Source of the DNA: Streptomyces sp. NBC_01335
GTDB taxonomy: Bacteria > Actinomycetota > Actinomycetes > Streptomycetales > Streptomycetaceae
Length of the DNA: 64,000 bases
Direction: 5' to 3'
Assembly (NCBI RefSeq): GCF_035953295.1
Contig: NZ_CP108370.1
Location: 3,129,001-3,193,000, forward strand
Both the position numbers and the translations under genes were made by a program. Under the pieces are notes generated by a model. The model saw only the letters and a list, made by a program, of their open reading frames with translations. It was not told where the DNA came from and ran no database searches. This document shows positions 3,753-14,214 of the stretch, one piece after another; the first letter of the stretch is position 1; each line of letters begins with the position of its first letter.

Positions 3753-4176
3753 TCAGCCCGCCCCCTCCAGCGATCCAACGACCGGGTCCCGACTACCCGG
3801 ACCCGGTGCGACGGGACCCGGTGCTACAAGGCCCGGAGGAACGGGACCCGGTCCACCGTGTCCTCGCTGGTGGGGACAGGGAGCTTCGGGATTCCAAAAG
3901 CTTGAAAGAACGTGGGAAAGAACCACACCCAACCCCCTCCCCACCCAGCGGTTCGGGAGGCGACCGGCGCCCTCGGGGGCCGACCGGCGTCCCTCGGCGC
4001 GTCCTCACCCGGACGGGTGACTTTCGGTAGCTCAGCTGGATTTCCGTCCGGTCGGCAGGCATACGCTCCCCCCAACAACAGGGGCATCCGCCCCACACCG
4101 GACATAGGACGGCCCCCGCCGGGACTGGCATCCCGATCGAGGGCCTGACCAACCAGGAAGTAAGCCCCTCTTCCCG
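3753..4176. other. Intergenic stretch without a gene
   Basis: No convincing coding region is seen. It contains short repeats of GGACCCGGT (3799-3807, 3814-3822, 3844-3852); the 12-mer ACGGGACCCGGT is repeated exactly 30 bp apart (3811, 3841). It also holds an A-rich segment around 3895-3925. It probably carries the promoter of the following winged-helix gene. Confidence 0.4.
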
Positions 4177-5538
4177 ATGGATATCCAGAAGACTAGCGCG
4201 CGCCCGCGCGCCCACACAGTGGTCGTCGACCGCAGCCGCACCCGGACTTCCGGGCTGTCGCACGTGACCGTGCCGCTCACCAGCGAGTTCGTGGTGGTCG
4301 GCAACCATCTGGCCCAGCACCCCGAACTGTCGCTCGTGGCGATCGGCATCTCGGTCCACATCCAGTCGCTGCCGCCCGGCCGACGGGTGGGCATCAAGGG
4401 ACTCGCCGAGCGCTTCCAGGAGGGCGCCGAGACCATCGCACGGGCCATGCGCGAGCTGGAGCGGTGCGGGTACCTGGACCGGCCCCGGGACCGTGTCGGC
4501 GAGGGCCGGTTCATGACGCGGACGATCGCGTACAACCACCCTGACGCCGCCCGGCAGGAGCGCGCCGCGCGGACAGCCGCAGCCGAGGTCAGGGCCACCG
4601 AGCGGAAGCTTTCCGGCGGGACGGTCCTCGGGCGGAGGTCCGCCGTCGTTCCGCGGCAGCGGGCAGGCGCGGGCGCTCCGGCCGCCGGGCGGCGTTACGG
4701 CACCCGGGCCGCGCAAGGACGGCACGGAGCGCAGCCGCGTCCCGCACGGGCGATGTGCACGGCGGCGGACGCGCTGCGGGAGCTGTGGGAGCCGGAGGCC
4801 GCTGCCACGGAGGCGGCTGCTGCGGAGGCAACTACTGTTGCGAAGGTGGTCGCCCAGGTACCGCAGGCGGCCGAAACCGCAGCGCACGTACCCGCCCCGG
4901 TGCCGCAGGAGCAGCCTGCCGTACCTGCCGCGGCAGAACCTGCAGTCGTCGCACCCGCCGCCCCATCCGCCGTCCCCGATACCGCAGTTGCCGTCCCCGA
5001 CGCCTCGACCATCCGTGCCTCCCTCCCCCGCCCCGTACAGCCGTCCGCGTCCTCGGCCGCCGACCTGGAGCGGCACGCCATCGCTGTCGAACTGCTCAGC
5101 GGATTGCGGGGCAGGGACGAGCGGCTGACGCTCAGCGAGAAGGACGTCGAGAAGCTCGCGCCGTCCGTGGGCCTCTGGCTGGAGCGCGGGGTGGAACTGG
5201 ACACCTTGTACCGGGCGCTCCTCGACGAGCTGCCTCCGATCGTGAAGTACCCGGTCAAGTTCGTCGGCTGCCGCTTGGCCGACCGCCTGCCGCCGCCGCT
5301 TCCCGCCCATCGCGGCCCCGGGCATCCCGGCGGTCACGGCGAGGCGCCCCGTAAGCCCGCCGTCACGCCCCTGCAGAACTGCGACAGCTGCGACCGGGCG
5401 TTCCGCTCCCCCGATCCGGGCCGCTGCCGCGCCTGCCGGCCGCCGGGCGCCGAGAGCACCGGCACAGGCACCAGCACGGGCACGGGCACGAGCGCGGAGA
5501 CCGGCGCAGGCACCAGCACCGGCCTTCCCCGTGGCTGA
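4177..5538 (+). CDS. Winged-helix DNA-binding protein with C-terminal CxxC zinc-ribbon-like motif
   Basis: A 453-residue protein. Residues about 27-115 look like a winged helix of the replication-initiator/MarR-like kind: SLVAIGISVHIQSLPPGRR, then GIKGLAERFQEGAETIARAM, a wing with RCGYLDR, and GRFMTRTIAYNHP. A long alanine/proline/valine-rich low-complexity region follows (about 200-290). A second folded helical part covers about 290-380 (AIAVELLSGLRGRDERLTLSEKDVEKLAP). A CDSC...CRAC pair (about residues 406-425) could bind zinc, and the tail is made of STGTGT repeats. Similar proteins occur widely in Streptomyces as helix-turn-helix proteins of unknown role. The ATG at 4177 has only a distant AGGAAG; a later GTG start is possible. 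Confidence 0.65.
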   Translation: MDIQKTSARPRAHTVVVDRSRTRTSGLSHVTVPLTSEFVVVGNHLAQHPELSLVAIGISVHIQSLPPGRRVGIKGLAERFQEGAETIARAMRELERCGYLDRPRDRVGEGRFMTRTIAYNHPDAARQERAARTAAAEVRATERKLSGGTVLGRRSAVVPRQRAGAGAPAAGRRYGTRAAQGRHGAQPRPARAMCTAADALRELWEPEAAATEAAAAEATTVAKVVAQVPQAAETAAHVPAPVPQEQPAVPAAAEPAVVAPAAPSAVPDTAVAVPDASTIRASLPRPVQPSASSAADLERHAIAVELLSGLRGRDERLTLSEKDVEKLAPSVGLWLERGVELDTLYRALLDELPPIVKYPVKFVGCRLADRLPPPLPAHRGPGHPGGHGEAPRKPAVTPLQNCDSCDRAFRSPDPGRCRACRPPGAESTGTGTSTGTGTSAETGAGTSTGLPRG

Positions 5539-5616
5539 CCGAAATCCCGTCGCCTCCCCGCCCCGCCGCTGCATAGAGTGACGGTCGCTTTCCCACCGGA
5601 CCGGGGGCCCGACCGT

Positions 5617-7317
5617 ATGCGTACGCACTATCCGCGCACCCCGCACCTGCCCTGGTCGCCGGGCGCCACCTCCGACGACGTGCGGGTGGCGGATCTGGCG
5701 GCGCTCGCCGGGCGCGAGGTCGTCGTGACGGAGAAGCTCGACGGCGAGAACACCACGCTCTACGCGGACGGGCTGCACGCACGCTCGCTGGACTCCGCCC
5801 ACCACCCCTCGCGGGGCTGGGTGAAGGCGCTCCAGGGGCGGGTGGGTTCCCGCATACCGGTGGGGTGGCGGGTGTGCGGCGAGAACATGTTCGCGCGGCA
5901 CTCGATCCCGTACGACCGGCTGGACAGCTTCTTCTACGGCTTCTCCGTCTGGGACGGCGACCGCTGCCTGGACTGGGACCGCACCACCGCGTTCCTGCGC
6001 GGGCTGGGCATCCCCGTACCGCCGGTGCTCTGGCGCGGGGTGTTCGACGCGCGGGCGGAGAAGGCGCTGCGGAAGACGGTGCTCGACACCGGGCGGCAGG
6101 AGGGGTACGTCGTACGGCCCACAGCGGCCTTCGGCGCCGACGAGTTCGGGCGGGTCGTCGCCAAGTGGGTGCGGCCGGGACACGTCACGACGGACACCCA
6201 CTGGATGCACGCGGCGGTCGTCCCGAACGCGCTGGGCCCCTCCGCCGCCCTGTGGAACGTACGCTCCGGCGGCGCGGTCGACGCGGACGCCGTGTACGAG
6301 GCGCTCCCCCCGGCGGGCAGCGAGCGGCAGGACACCGCGCCCGACGCCCGTACGGCGACCGCCATGGGCTCCGGCGTCGCGGGCGCCGACGGCTCGGCGC
6401 CCTTCGGCGACGAGCGGCTGGCCGGGGTGCTCGCGGGGCTGCTGCACCGTGACCGCCGGACCTCGGTCGCGCCCCGGCTCGCCCCGGTCGTCGGGCTGCC
6501 GCTGGCCATGCGGGTCGCGGACCTGGTGGGGCTCCACCGTTCGCTGCACCGGCCGTACCCGGACGAGGAGCGCCGGACCGGGCTGACCCGGATGTCCTGG
6601 GCGGCCGACCTGCCGACCCTGCACGCGCTCGCGGCGGCCACCGCCCCCACGGACGAGGCGCGCGGGTACGTCGAGTGGTCCGCGCTCCACGCCGCGGAGG
6701 TCCGCGAGCCCGCCGGGCTGCGCGAGGTGTTCGACGGGCTGGAGCCGGACGCGGCCGACCGCTGCCGGGCGCAGGCCCGCGAGGCGTACGCGCTGGGGCG
6801 GATCTCGACCGCCGAGGAGGCGGTCGCCGCGACCTGGCGGCTGCGGTCCGGTGACTTCCCGCGTCTGGTACTGGTGTGCGGGCCGTCCGGCAGCGGGAAG
6901 AGCACGTACGCCCGCGATCTGCCCGGCGTCACCACCCGCGTCGCCCTCGACGACCTGCGCGAGGCGCGTGGCGACCGGGCCGACCAGAGCGCCAACGCCG
7001 AGGTGCTGCGGGAGGCGCTGGACCGGCTGGACCGTGCGCTGGAACCCCGTACGACGACGGTCTGGGACGCGACCTCGCTCACCCCGAGGCAGCGCGCGCT
7101 GGTGCACGCCACCGCCGCGCGCCGGGACGCGATGGTCACGCACGTGGTGGCGGTGGTGGGCGCGGAGGAGCTGGCCCGCCGCAACACCCGCCGTACCCAT
7201 CCCGTACCGCCACGGGTGCAGGAGGCGCAGCTGCGGCGGTACGTCCCGCCCTACCCCGGCGAGGCGCACCGGACCTGGTACCTGGGCACGAGCGGGACGG
7301 TGGAGGCGAGGGCCTGA
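5617..7317 (+). CDS. RNA ligase fused to polynucleotide-kinase-type P-loop domain
   Basis: A 566-residue protein that would re-seal broken RNA. Residues about 25-225 show nucleotidyltransferase ligase motifs: TEKLDGEN (K40 is the predicted AMP-accepting lysine), CGENMFARHSIPY, FYGFSVWDG, EGYVVRP and VAKWVRPG. The C-terminal part has a Walker A (GPSGSGKST, about 422-430), then DDLREARG, whose Asp and Arg match the catalytic pair of T4-type 5'-kinases, and a basic lid (RRNTRRTH). It would thus make 5'-phosphates and ligate. ATG 5617 was preferred over an upstream GTG at 5578, which lies within the probable promoter. Its stop overlaps the next ATG by one base, so the two genes are coupled. Confidence 0.85.
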   Translation: MRTHYPRTPHLPWSPGATSDDVRVADLAALAGREVVVTEKLDGENTTLYADGLHARSLDSAHHPSRGWVKALQGRVGSRIPVGWRVCGENMFARHSIPYDRLDSFFYGFSVWDGDRCLDWDRTTAFLRGLGIPVPPVLWRGVFDARAEKALRKTVLDTGRQEGYVVRPTAAFGADEFGRVVAKWVRPGHVTTDTHWMHAAVVPNALGPSAALWNVRSGGAVDADAVYEALPPAGSERQDTAPDARTATAMGSGVAGADGSAPFGDERLAGVLAGLLHRDRRTSVAPRLAPVVGLPLAMRVADLVGLHRSLHRPYPDEERRTGLTRMSWAADLPTLHALAAATAPTDEARGYVEWSALHAAEVREPAGLREVFDGLEPDAADRCRAQAREAYALGRISTAEEAVAATWRLRSGDFPRLVLVCGPSGSGKSTYARDLPGVTTRVALDDLREARGDRADQSANAEVLREALDRLDRALEPRTTTVWDATSLTPRQRALVHATAARRDAMVTHVVAVVGAEELARRNTRRTHPVPPRVQEAQLRRYVPPYPGEAHRTWYLGTSGTVEARA

Positions 7318-9662
7318 TGCGGACGAGCGACGAGATCTACCACCGCGTCCGGTGGGACGCCCGCTTCGATCCGGCGCGGTTCACGATCGGGGTGGCGCAG
7401 CGCGGCCGGGAGCCGAAGCGGGTGCCGTTGCCGCTGTTCACGCCGGGCGGGGAGATCCCCTGGCACCGGGTGCTCTTCTTCGAGGCGGACGGCGAGACGG
7501 TGTGGGACCGTGCCTCCGGCCTGGACCGGGTGGACACGGCGGAGGCCGGACGGGTGCGCGAGGCCCGGTCGCTGCCGTCGCCGTACTTCGCCGCCCGGAC
7601 CCCGCACGCCTTCGACGGCCGGGGATGGGCGCCCGTGCCTCCTCCTGCTGAAATCGCCCTGTCCGCAGGCGGGTTGACCGTGCTGACGTGGAACACGCTC
7701 TGGGACCGGTACGACTCCGAGCGCATCGCCACCGACCGCCGCCGCCCGCTCCTGCTCGACGCGCTGCGGGCCGCCGACGCGGACGTCATCGCCCTCCAGG
7801 AGGTCGAACCGCCGCTGCTGGACCTGCTGGCGGGCAGCGCGTGGGTCCGGGAGGAGTACGCGTTCGGCGCCGCCCTCGACGGGCGGGAGGTCGCCGACTG
7901 CGGGCTGCTGCTGCTCAGCCGGCTGCCGGTACGCGAGGCGGGGTGGCACCCGCTGGGGCGGCACAAGGCGGTCGCCGCGGTCGTCGTGGAAACGGCGGAC
8001 GGGCCCGTCACCGTCGCGGTGACCCACCTCAGCAGCGACCACTCCCCCGAGGGAGCCGCCCGCCGCGACCGTGAACTCGCGGATCTGGCAACGGGGTTGG
8101 CGGACCTGACGGGAGACCTCCTGGTGGTCGGGGACTTCAACGACGGCGGCCCGAACCCGCAGTCCCGGCTCGGCCTGACGGACGCCTGGACGACGGTGCG
8201 CGGCCCGGACGACCGGACCCCCACCTTCGACCCCTCGGTGAACCCGCTGGCCGCCGTGGGCTCGCTCACCGGCCGGATCTCGCGGCTGGACCGGGTGCTC
8301 CACCGCGCGGAGCGGCTGCGCCCGGTGGCGGCCGGGCTGGTGGGCGCCGAGCCGGACGCGACCGGGCTGTACGCCTCGGACCACTTCGGCGTACGCGTCG
8401 AACTGGCCCCGGCCGGTGCCGAAGCAGGCCCGGCCGGCGCCGAAATGAGCCCTTCCTGTGTCGAGTTGGCCCCGGAAGGTACCGACGTGGGCCCCGACCT
8501 CGGCGAGTCGGTCCTCCGCCGTGTGGCGGAGGCGCTGCCCGGCGGGAGCGTCCTCCGGCTCGTCGGTTCGCGGCGGATCGGCGGTGCGCTCCCCGGCGCG
8601 GACGTGGACCTGGTGGCGGCGCTGCCCGCCCCGGTCGGCGCCCGGGCGCTGGGGCGTCGGCTGCCGGACGCCGAGGAGGTGCGCGAGGTGGTGGGGGCCC
8701 GGGTGCCGGGCCTGCGTTTCCTCCTCGACGGTGTACCGGTGGACCTGGTGACGGTCGTACCGGACCGGGTTCCCCCGGCCGAGGCGGTCGAGCGGCGCGA
8801 GGAGCTGGGCGCTGCGGCGGCCGTCGCGCTGAGCGCGGTGAGCGACGCGGAGGCGGTGCGCGCGGCCACGGCCCCGTACCGGCAGGCGTTCACCGAGCTG
8901 GCCCACGACGTGAAGGCGTGGGCGCGGGCGCGCGGGCTCGACTCGGCCCCGAGCGGCGGGCTGCCGGGCCTGGCGTGGACGGTCCTCGCGGTCCGGACGG
9001 TCCACGCGGTCCGGACGGTCCACGCGGCGGAAGCGGTCCACGCGACGCGCACGACGGGTACGGCCCGGCCGACGCGTACGGCGCTGCTCCGGCGGTTCTT
9101 CGCCCAGTGGGCGGAGTGGGACTGGGCCCGGCCGGTGGCGTACGCGGGCGATCCCCTCCCCCTCGACAATCCCCTCCCCCTCGACGCGGGCTCCGCCGTC
9201 ACGATCCTGACGCCGACCGCCCCCGTAAGGTCCTGCTCCACGCAGGTGTCGGCGGCCGGCCGGGACCTGCTCGCCGAGGAGCTGTACCGGGCGTGGGAGG
9301 TGCTGGAGGCGGCGGCGGACGCCGAGCCCGTCCCGTACGCCCGGCTCTGCGCCCCACCCCCGCACCACCTGCGCCACCGTGCCTGGGCGCTGGTCTCCGT
9401 ACGCGAGGGCGCCGACGAGGGCCGCTTCCGGGGGCGGCTCCTGGCACTCCTCGACGCCCTCGCCCGGTCCGGCTCCCCCGACACCCACGCCTGGCCGCGC
9501 CCGGTCACCGGGGGCGCGGACGCGGGGTTCGTCCGGTACGCCGTCGGGCTCGGCGCCACTCCCCCGGACGCGCAGCGCCTCACGGAGATCGGCGCGGAGA
9601 TCCTGCGCGGGCTGCCCGGCGCCCGGGTGAGCCGGACGGTGGCGCCGCCCCCGCTGGGCTGA
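7317..9662 (+). CDS. RNA-end-processing fusion: MJ1316/DUF504 + EEP phosphoesterase + nucleotidyltransferase
   Basis: A 781-residue multidomain protein. Residues 1-85 resemble DUF504/MJ1316 (SDEIYHRVRWD, PLFTPGGEIPWHRVLFF), predicted by others to recognise RNA cyclic-phosphate ends. Residues about 120-360 are an endonuclease/exonuclease/phosphatase domain with the key motifs LTWNTLWD, ADVIALQEVE, VVGDFNDGG and the final SDHFGV. Residues about 405-520 are a polymerase-beta-type nucleotidyltransferase (GSRRIGGALPGADVDLVAAL, the GS...DxD motif) followed by a helical poly(A)/CCA-polymerase-like domain to about 700. The order suggests end recognition, trimming and nucleotide addition before ligation by the upstream partner. 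ATG 7317 overlaps the ligase stop, with GGAGGCGAGG in front. Short in-frame tandem repeats interrupt the helical domain. Confidence 0.82.
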   Translation: MRTSDEIYHRVRWDARFDPARFTIGVAQRGREPKRVPLPLFTPGGEIPWHRVLFFEADGETVWDRASGLDRVDTAEAGRVREARSLPSPYFAARTPHAFDGRGWAPVPPPAEIALSAGGLTVLTWNTLWDRYDSERIATDRRRPLLLDALRAADADVIALQEVEPPLLDLLAGSAWVREEYAFGAALDGREVADCGLLLLSRLPVREAGWHPLGRHKAVAAVVVETADGPVTVAVTHLSSDHSPEGAARRDRELADLATGLADLTGDLLVVGDFNDGGPNPQSRLGLTDAWTTVRGPDDRTPTFDPSVNPLAAVGSLTGRISRLDRVLHRAERLRPVAAGLVGAEPDATGLYASDHFGVRVELAPAGAEAGPAGAEMSPSCVELAPEGTDVGPDLGESVLRRVAEALPGGSVLRLVGSRRIGGALPGADVDLVAALPAPVGARALGRRLPDAEEVREVVGARVPGLRFLLDGVPVDLVTVVPDRVPPAEAVERREELGAAAAVALSAVSDAEAVRAATAPYRQAFTELAHDVKAWARARGLDSAPSGGLPGLAWTVLAVRTVHAVRTVHAAEAVHATRTTGTARPTRTALLRRFFAQWAEWDWARPVAYAGDPLPLDNPLPLDAGSAVTILTPTAPVRSCSTQVSAAGRDLLAEELYRAWEVLEAAADAEPVPYARLCAPPPHHLRHRAWALVSVREGADEGRFRGRLLALLDALARSGSPDTHAWPRPVTGGADAGFVRYAVGLGATPPDAQRLTEIGAEILRGLPGARVSRTVAPPPLG
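8988..9041 (+). repeat. Three 18-bp tandem repeats inside the nucleotidyltransferase gene
   Basis: Two identical 18-bp units (8988-9005, 9006-9023) and a diverged third (9024-9041) encode AVRTVH-type repeats. The frame is kept. Confidence 0.85.
9150..9185 (+). repeat. Two 18-bp tandem repeats inside the nucleotidyltransferase gene
   Basis: Units 9150-9167 and 9168-9185 differ only in the first bases and encode DPLPLD-NPLPLD, an in-frame local duplication. Confidence 0.85.

Positions 9663-13020: not shown

Positions 13021-14214
<1,194 letters not shown>

Follow-up and report, generated by a model that had tools for sequence, protein, structure and literature searches.

A conserved two-gene operon in Streptomyces sp. 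NBC_01335 as a candidate pared-down RNA repair kit

Results

Layout of the operon

The window, that is, the whole stretch of 64,000 nucleotides analysed from Streptomyces sp. NBC_01335 (NZ_CP108370.1, positions 3,129,001 to 3,193,000), contains a two-gene operon that is real, conserved and preceded by its own promoter. The features are listed below, with domain limits in amino acids (aa).

5540..5583, forward strand: operon promoter, with upstream element GAAATCCCGTCG (5541-5552), a 21 nt spacer and a -10-like TAGAGT (5574-5579)
5617..7317, forward strand: gene 1, ATG at 5617, TGA at 7315-7317, 566 aa
Gene 1, approximately aa 1-215, forward strand: predicted DRB0100-type ATP-dependent RNA ligase (Pfam; 56% identity to a D. 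radiodurans plasmid ligase)
Gene 1, approximately aa 244-392, forward strand: predicted degenerate HD remnant, helical (HD-Pnk profile match)
Gene 1, approximately aa 405-566, forward strand: predicted Pnkp-type 5'-OH polynucleotide kinase (Pfam, HD-Pnk profile, fold model)
7317..9662, forward strand: gene 2, ATG at 7317-7319, stop ending at 9662, 781 aa
Gene 2, aa 1-65, forward strand: MJ1316 domain (Pfam PF04457, E 8e-18)
Gene 2, approximately aa 120-360, forward strand: EEP phosphoesterase (Pfam Exo_endo_phos PF03372, residues 123-356, E 1.4e-19)
Gene 2, approximately aa 395-781, forward strand: predicted eukaryote-type poly(A)-polymerase nucleotidyltransferase (PAP_central, NTP_transf_2, PDB profile, fold)

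The stop codon of gene 1 and the start codon of gene 2 share one base on the same strand (TGATG). A preliminary description of the locus had given this overlap and the coordinates exactly, and the motifs that it had named in gene 1 (K40 in KLDG, EGYVVR and DDLR) are present. Its domain calls for both genes were right: the Pfam searches that it had proposed found the ligase and AAA_33 in gene 1, and MJ1316, PF03372 and a nucleotidyltransferase in gene 2, and the Pfam, profile and fold matches agree. It had not mentioned the promoter, the HD remnant in gene 1, or the absence here of a 2H domain that most relatives carry.

Gene 1 combines a ligase, an HD remnant and a kinase

Residues 33-185 of gene 1 match RNA_ligase PF09414 (E 1.6e-35; 123.2 bits against a cut-off of 27), and the KxDG lysine and motifs IV and V of a DRB0100-type ligase are present. 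Among 74 gene 1 proteins (the window and 73 loci), K40, D42 and G43 are kept in 73, the remaining one having a gap, and E162, G163 and K183 are kept in 74/74; the conservation of the ligase lysine is far beyond chance. In a plasmid search, the ligase half (residues 1-206) shared 56% identity with a ligase encoded by the 177-kb plasmid of Deinococcus radiodurans. A quick tree of 65 rows, which took 38 of the 74 viral loci and phage XacN1, placed gene 1 near Deinococcus DRB0100 and viral ligases, and far from a second D. radiodurans ligase, DraRnl.

The AlphaFold model of gene 1 has a mean pLDDT of 81.6. Among the 50 fold matches listed, Pnkp kinases lead, with the kinase chain of an RNA repair complex at rank 23, Trl1 at rank 25 (E 4e-4) and a Naegleria RNA ligase at rank 31 (E 6e-4). 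No RNA ligase was found among the PDB matches of the gene 1 sequence profile at E 0.01, which were to the kinase part only.

The ligase half (5620-6237) also matches PHROG 34045 (E 1.7e-71), which is annotated as function unknown and whose members are probably RNA ligases. A phage origin of the operon was considered and rejected: viral kin were found mainly for the ligase half, and gene 2 had no match in phage records, nor, as a single-protein query, in viral contigs. An HD-Pnk gene lies beside the ligase at 1/73 viral ligase loci; at this locus, a jumbo-phage contig (L203:8001-9754), the DRB0100-type ligase gene overlaps the HD-Pnk gene, and the HD motif is intact. Against the PADLOC anti-phage models, gene 2 gave no match and gene 1 gave weak P-loop matches only (best E 0.0013). 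Identity as a defence system was rejected, as no PADLOC match went beyond the bare P-loop.

Residues 417-542 of gene 1 match AAA_33 (Pfam, E 7.9e-21), and the profile, the HD-Pnk alignment and the fold all point to a C-terminal Pnk-type P-loop kinase. K428 is kept in 73/74 gene 1 proteins, and the P-loop lysine in 73/73 of the set used for the HD counts below. The second half of gene 1 is 36-38% identical to HD-Pnk, from behind the HD motif onward. Profile-to-profile comparison with HD-Pnk gave a probability of 99.9% (E 4.1e-34), a value to which the included kinase surely adds much.

The HD metal ligands (H...HD...D) are missing from gene 1 of the window, where A, HR and T occupy the three positions. 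When 73 gene 1 proteins (L099 left out) were aligned with eight HD-Pnk proteins, the ligands invariant in all eight were rarely kept: the first His in 1/73, the HD Asp in 5/73, the third His in 4/73 and the last Asp in 0/73. The His of the HD motif is kept in 63/73 and a later His in 49/73, and the HD pair is intact in two proteins (L064 and L111). Judged by sequence, gene 1 is a fused ligase and HD-Pnk, the middle of which is a remnant of the HD phosphoesterase without its metal ligands, and the HD appears degenerate in nearly all the gene 1 proteins examined.

Gene 2 combines MJ1316, EEP and transferase domains

The MJ1316 domain scores 65.4 bits against a PF04457 cut-off of 26.3. Across 81 gene 2 rows (the window and the best 80 of 309 relatives), W13, W49, H50, R51, D64 and R65 of this domain are kept in 81/81, as are N126, E162, D273, N275, D355 and H356 of the EEP, and the EEP conservation is likewise far beyond chance. 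The EEP count covers the best-scoring matches, and L029 falls outside them. This locus (L029:7481-8686, reverse strand) encodes a 402-aa MJ1316-EEP protein with N126D, E162D and H237L (window numbering) and gene 1 absent, and is apparently a decaying copy of gene 2. In two Microtetraspora loci (L102 and L114), gene 2 stops after the EEP (368 and 372 aa), yet the gene 1 that precedes it is full-length and the promoter is present.

The C-terminal part of gene 2 matches PAP_central (E 1.7e-6) and NTP_transf_2 (E 5.6e-4; 20.7 bits, just below the cut-off of 21) in Pfam, and its family profile matches poly(A) polymerase gamma in the PDB (4lt6; E 5.4e-33). D429, D431 and D476 are kept in 78/81 rows, the others being gaps, and G417 and S418 in 79/81. 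The profile and fold matches and the GS...D.D...D residues are those of a eukaryote-type poly(A) polymerase. The RlaP nucleotidyltransferase family, which presumably has a Pfam model, was not among the four Pfam families that matched gene 2 at E up to 1. RlaP appears in PMC7824862 as a family of RNA repair systems.

In the AlphaFold model of gene 2 (mean pLDDT 85.0), the top fold matches are the mammalian poly(A) polymerases 1f5a and 4lt6, and TDP2 is matched as well. The EEP profile is nearest to TDP2 (E 6.8e-12) and not to ANGEL2 (E 0.11), and by fold it superimposes on TDP2 with a TM of about 0.8 over the TDP2 chain; removal of a 3'-phosphate is therefore not its obvious reaction.

The 2H domain is absent from this lineage

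No 2H domain (PF13563) was found between the EEP and the transferase of the window gene at E up to 1. The position is taken up by a linker of some 28 residues (aa 366-393), 20 of them with a pLDDT <50. In the genus sample, an insert some 200 aa long occupies this position in 11 of the 12 relatives with an EEP, L029 stopping short of it, and the insert is PF13563 in both relatives scanned (E 1.1e-31 and 2.5e-30). The 81 rows (the window and the best 80 of 309) comprise 51 with 2H, 28 without it and two (Microtetraspora) that end after the EEP; among the best 80 of 309 relatives alone, 51 have 2H, and the 27 that lack it lie on more than one branch. The 2H-less rows in a quick tree form one fully supported clade of 23 Streptomyces, with L052 weakly placed and four found elsewhere (S. 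carminius, Actinoplanes, Goodfellowiella and Actinoallomurus). A single clade of 2H-less rows was rejected (p-AU 1.7e-33; 73 rows, 26 without 2H) in a tree that left out 8/81 rows that were cut, frame-broken or EEP-only (L056, L057, L059, L082, L099, L102, L111 and L114). Repeated loss of 2H is the simplest reading of these sequences, and repeated gain would also be compatible with the tree test.

According to PMC7824862, the 2H family is a specialist for 2',3'-cyclic phosphates. Five PF13563 proteins are encoded elsewhere in the genome, and these could open cyclic ends in trans. Compensation by a second MJ1316 protein was considered and rejected, the genome having one MJ1316 match only. With the HD degenerate in the gene 1 family and 2H absent in this lineage, the EEP is the operon's only remaining 3'-end phosphoesterase, and it likely acts as the 3'-end healer. 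The preliminary description had placed the whole chain of repair in two polypeptides, which was too strong, because the window copy is without two 3'-end phosphoesterase activities found in relatives (the 2H domain and the HD active site). The cyclic-end step therefore rests on the EEP or on one of the five PF13563 proteins elsewhere.

A conserved promoter precedes gene 1

The promoter ends 33 nt before the ATG of gene 1. A 44-nt motif in the 160 nt upstream of gene 1 at 73 loci (those with 250 nt upstream, window included) reached 30.3 bits against 9.5 for shuffled sequences, with the shuffled control run from two starts and the real set from four, and with related species raising the real value; the bits are not independent, because many loci are close relatives. 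Scored with a matrix built without the window, the window site ranked first of 127,914 positions with 20.9 bits, the next scoring 7.2. Leave-one-out scoring placed 69/73 loci above 12 bits, and those staying below in a rescan were L087 (-20.6), L091 (9.2), L108 (11.1) and L109 (10.7). The final matrix left out L087, L089, L107, L108 and L109, which had low first-site scores. Across 1,146,524 positions (the window and 25 loci, best three sites each), the only sites of >12 bits were the operon's own, in 24/26 sequences; of the other two, L054 has no gene 1, and the contig of L055 begins inside gene 1.

The -10 part (TAnnnT) is ordinary-looking, and the upstream element, with the consensus gTtATtC...TsG, lies 21 nt upstream of it. 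We know of no described element to which the latter corresponds. The operon promoter was not found at stand-alone MJ1316-2H genes or a lone gene 2 (L030-L034 and L054), nor in the RtcB and Hen1-Pnkp stretches (L140, L141 and L146). A larger operon including the HTH gene at 4177-5538 is thought unlikely, because the promoter sits between the HTH stop codon and gene 1. Rfam places the Streptomyces sRNA scr4677 at 3882-4176 (forward strand; 83.9 bits against a gathering threshold of 41), ending at the start of the HTH gene (4177).

Distribution, coupling and genomic site

Gene 2 matches occurred in 18/61 genus genomes (its own included), 13 with MJ1316 and EEP and five with a short MJ1316 protein only. 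The five short proteins (L030-L034; 268-304 aa), of which the two scanned are MJ1316-2H, have no gene 1 in the 16 kb covered and no operon promoter, and three Streptomyces plasmids also gave short MJ1316 matches. Across the phylum MJ1316 is rare (2/296 genomes, its own included). Gene 1 with its ligase was found in 16/61 genus genomes (its own included), once as two distant pieces, and gene 2 adjoins it at 14/16 genus loci. In one genome (L028 and L130), the kinase part of gene 1 adjoins gene 2 and is separated from the ligase part by about 2.8 Mb; at L119, gene 1 is present but gene 2 is missing to a distance of about 1.5 kb.

Scanning named genomes yielded 309 gene 2 relatives, the best 80 of which were studied; because the fractions below come from these best 80 only, they are skewed in favour of proteins that resemble the window gene. 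The families represented are Streptomycetaceae, Streptosporangiaceae, Micromonosporaceae, Catenulisporaceae, Pseudonocardiaceae, Nocardiopsidaceae and Thermomonosporaceae. Upstream of gene 2, the ligase segment was present at 73 of the best 80 loci, at least the kinase segment at six more, and no gene 1 at one. Five of these six lie near a contig end; L094 has room for a ligase, yet has none. The single locus with gene 2 and no gene 1 is that of Actinoplanes utahensis (L054), where no ligase gene adjoins. The distances of gene 1 and gene 2 correlate at 0.876 over 68 loci, a value that partly reflects shared species history. No RNase toxin was recognised among the recurrent neighbours from their first 120 residues, read without a domain search.

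rpsJ lies to the left of gene 1 on the opposite strand at 40/80 loci (best 80 of 309), within 650 nt in 22, and tuf lies to the right of the operon on the opposite strand at 26/80, many contigs or flanks being too short to tell. The same placement between these ribosomal operons holds in the window genome, where tuf occupies 13021-14214 and rpsJ lies 1.7 kb beyond the left edge of the window. The same genome also encodes RtcB, Hen1 and, directly behind Hen1, a Pnkp-like kinase match (C1: 4544950, 6277931 and 6279610).

Comparison with known systems

The D. radiodurans plasmid ligase adjoins a TIGR02452 protein and an HD-AAA_33 protein, and by gene order and products this locus is the DRB0100 / PARG / DRB0098 operon described in PMC1997131 and PMC11833690. 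The likeness to the Streptomyces operon covers the ligase half, in which K40 is shared and identity reaches 56% across 206 residues, and the kinase with part of the gene 1 middle, which match the Deinococcus HD-Pnk (36-38% identity). In Deinococcus, however, the ligase and HD-Pnk are separate genes and the HD is intact, whereas in Streptomyces they are fused and the HD has lost its active site; the Streptomyces operon also adds gene 2, whereas 12.6 kb of the Deinococcus locus contain no annotated MJ1316-EEP-PAP gene. DRB0100 forms a covalent AMP adduct that is lost in K40A, and the purified protein gave no DNA or RNA ligation product in vitro, according to PMC1997131. Ionizing radiation strongly induces the DRB0098-0100 operon, and the DRB0100 knock-out is fully radiation resistant, according to PMC1978522. 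A ligase gene adjoins or lies near HD-Pnk in 5/8 HD-Pnk records (three Deinococcus, Bosea and Variovorax), the Bosea and Variovorax ligases being far more distantly related; in the other three records, no annotated ligase lies within 4 kb of HD-Pnk.

The MJ1316-EEP-2H-PAP proteins of other Actinomycetota and of a Calothrix plasmid have the same domain order as gene 2, except that the window gene is without 2H. The Calothrix plasmid is conjugative and carries a full MJ1316-EEP-2H-PAP gene (L223:7995-10970, annotated thpR_2), with no ligase domain in the three neighbours scanned. The Pnkp-Hen1 system likewise pairs a Pnkp-type kinase with an RNA ligase acting on healed ends, but the operon has neither Hen1 nor the Pnkp phosphatase (TIGR04075 scored 37 bits against a cut-off of 750), and a separate Hen1 and Pnkp-like kinase lie elsewhere in the genome. 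Fungal tRNA ligase Trl1, which consists of ligase, kinase and cyclic phosphodiesterase (CPDase) parts, resembles gene 1 in having a ligase and a kinase in one chain, and its structure 9r3w is among the gene 1 fold matches; however, Pfam found no cyclic phosphodiesterase in gene 1, and the two structures superimpose poorly overall (TM 0.24). RtcB repair also seals RNA after RNase damage, but the operon contains no RtcB, the one in this genome being encoded elsewhere.

Discussion

The sequences and predicted folds show the domains described, intact active-site residues in them, the coupling of the two genes and a shared conserved promoter. We read the operon as one for RNA repair by healing and sealing, and consider this reading reasonably probable. 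The healing and sealing function proposed in the preliminary description thus stands as the best-supported reading, resting on correct domain calls, with every reaction in it deduced from sequence or fold. Its presentation as an undescribed system went too far: Pfam already names MJ1316 as the RNA cyclic group end recognition domain, and a 2016 study by Burroughs and Aravind (doi 10.1093/nar/gkw722), the likeliest earlier description of such an operon, deals with RNA repair domain sets. That study is cited on these sets in PMC6514570, where MJ1316 is given as a predicted cyclic-end recognition domain. The operon, most likely one for RNA repair, is a pared-down version of an already known type of kit. 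No experimental study of it in Streptomyces was recognised in the open-licence literature, judged by titles and opening lines. The link to DRB0100, the double loss of 3'-phosphoesterases and the promoter are points that specialists may not know.

In the proposed scheme, a cut by an RNase would leave a 2',3'-cyclic phosphate (or 3'-phosphate) and a 5'-OH end. The MJ1316 domain of gene 2 would hold the RNA 3' end, the EEP would clear the phosphate to a 3'-OH, and the poly(A)-polymerase-type transferase may re-add lost nucleotides. Gene 1 would then phosphorylate the 5'-OH through its kinase and seal the RNA through its ligase, which would carry AMP on K40. The EEP may thereby have taken over 3' healing from the HD, degenerate in gene 1, and from 2H, absent in this lineage. 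We infer each of these reactions, RNA as the substrate, the order of the steps, induction and the takeover of 3' healing by the EEP. In favour of RNA repair, the two Microtetraspora proteins keep only MJ1316 and the EEP behind gene 1, and there is a precedent for an EEP protein as a 3' healer in ANGEL2, which hydrolyses RNA 2',3'-cyclic phosphate according to PMC9525292. Against it, the genome also has RtcB and Hen1, which leaves the need for a further repair system unexplained.

The affinity of the EEP to TDP2, which matches it best both in profile (E 6.8e-12) and in fold (TM about 0.8), raises the alternative that the domain frees the ends of nucleic acids from a protein or another adduct, so that the operon would repair adducted rather than RNase-cut ends. 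We regard this as unlikely, since MJ1316 is predicted to bind cyclic RNA ends and the relatives join the EEP to 2H, the cyclic-phosphate specialist family of PMC7824862. The kinase of gene 1, moreover, implies 5'-OH ends, whereas TDP2 products are 5'-phosphorylated in PDB titles. Gene 2 might instead mark or trim RNA 3' ends in tailing, decay or maturation, with ligation a side branch and repair not the main role; this would fit a transferase like the poly(A) polymerases of eukaryotes (E 5.4e-33 to PAP gamma) and the presence of gene 2 without gene 1 in A. utahensis. That role is quite improbable, however, as gene 1, or at least its kinase part, lies upstream at 79/80 loci (best 80 of 309) and the conserved promoter precedes gene 1 in 69/73.

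Repair of DNA strand breaks, as once proposed for Deinococcus DRB0100-DRB0098, is very improbable for this operon. The strong induction of DRB0098-0100 by ionizing radiation (PMC1978522) would fit it, but DRB0100 did not ligate DNA in vitro (PMC1997131) and its knock-out is fully radiation resistant (PMC1978522), and RNA is the substrate suggested by the MJ1316, 2H and poly(A)-polymerase domains.

Taking RNA repair as the preferred reading, the operon is probably inducible. Sigma adaptation by PafBC and AfsR is described in PMC11804915, and an activator resembling these at the operon promoter is our guess. A wider picture, which we offer tentatively and consider doubtful, is that of a dedicated RNA-damage response of Actinomycetota, in which a putative activator at gTtATtC...TsG would switch on this operon alone, a TDP2-like EEP would have replaced HD and 2H, a eukaryote-type poly(A) polymerase would refill bases, and DRB0100 would be an RNA ligase needing a partner and healed RNA ends.

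If this is true, the same ligase family would explain the radiation-induced, seemingly idle DRB0100 of Deinococcus. Because close relatives of DRB0100 sit in RNA repair operons, the puzzle of a radiation-induced 'DNA ligase' that is inactive in vitro and dispensable for radiation resistance would gain a testable answer. The lineage would also offer a natural experiment on RNA 3'-end healing, in which two candidate phosphoesterases are gone and the EEP stays, and the promoter would provide a way to trace the signal by which Streptomyces sets RNA repair in motion.
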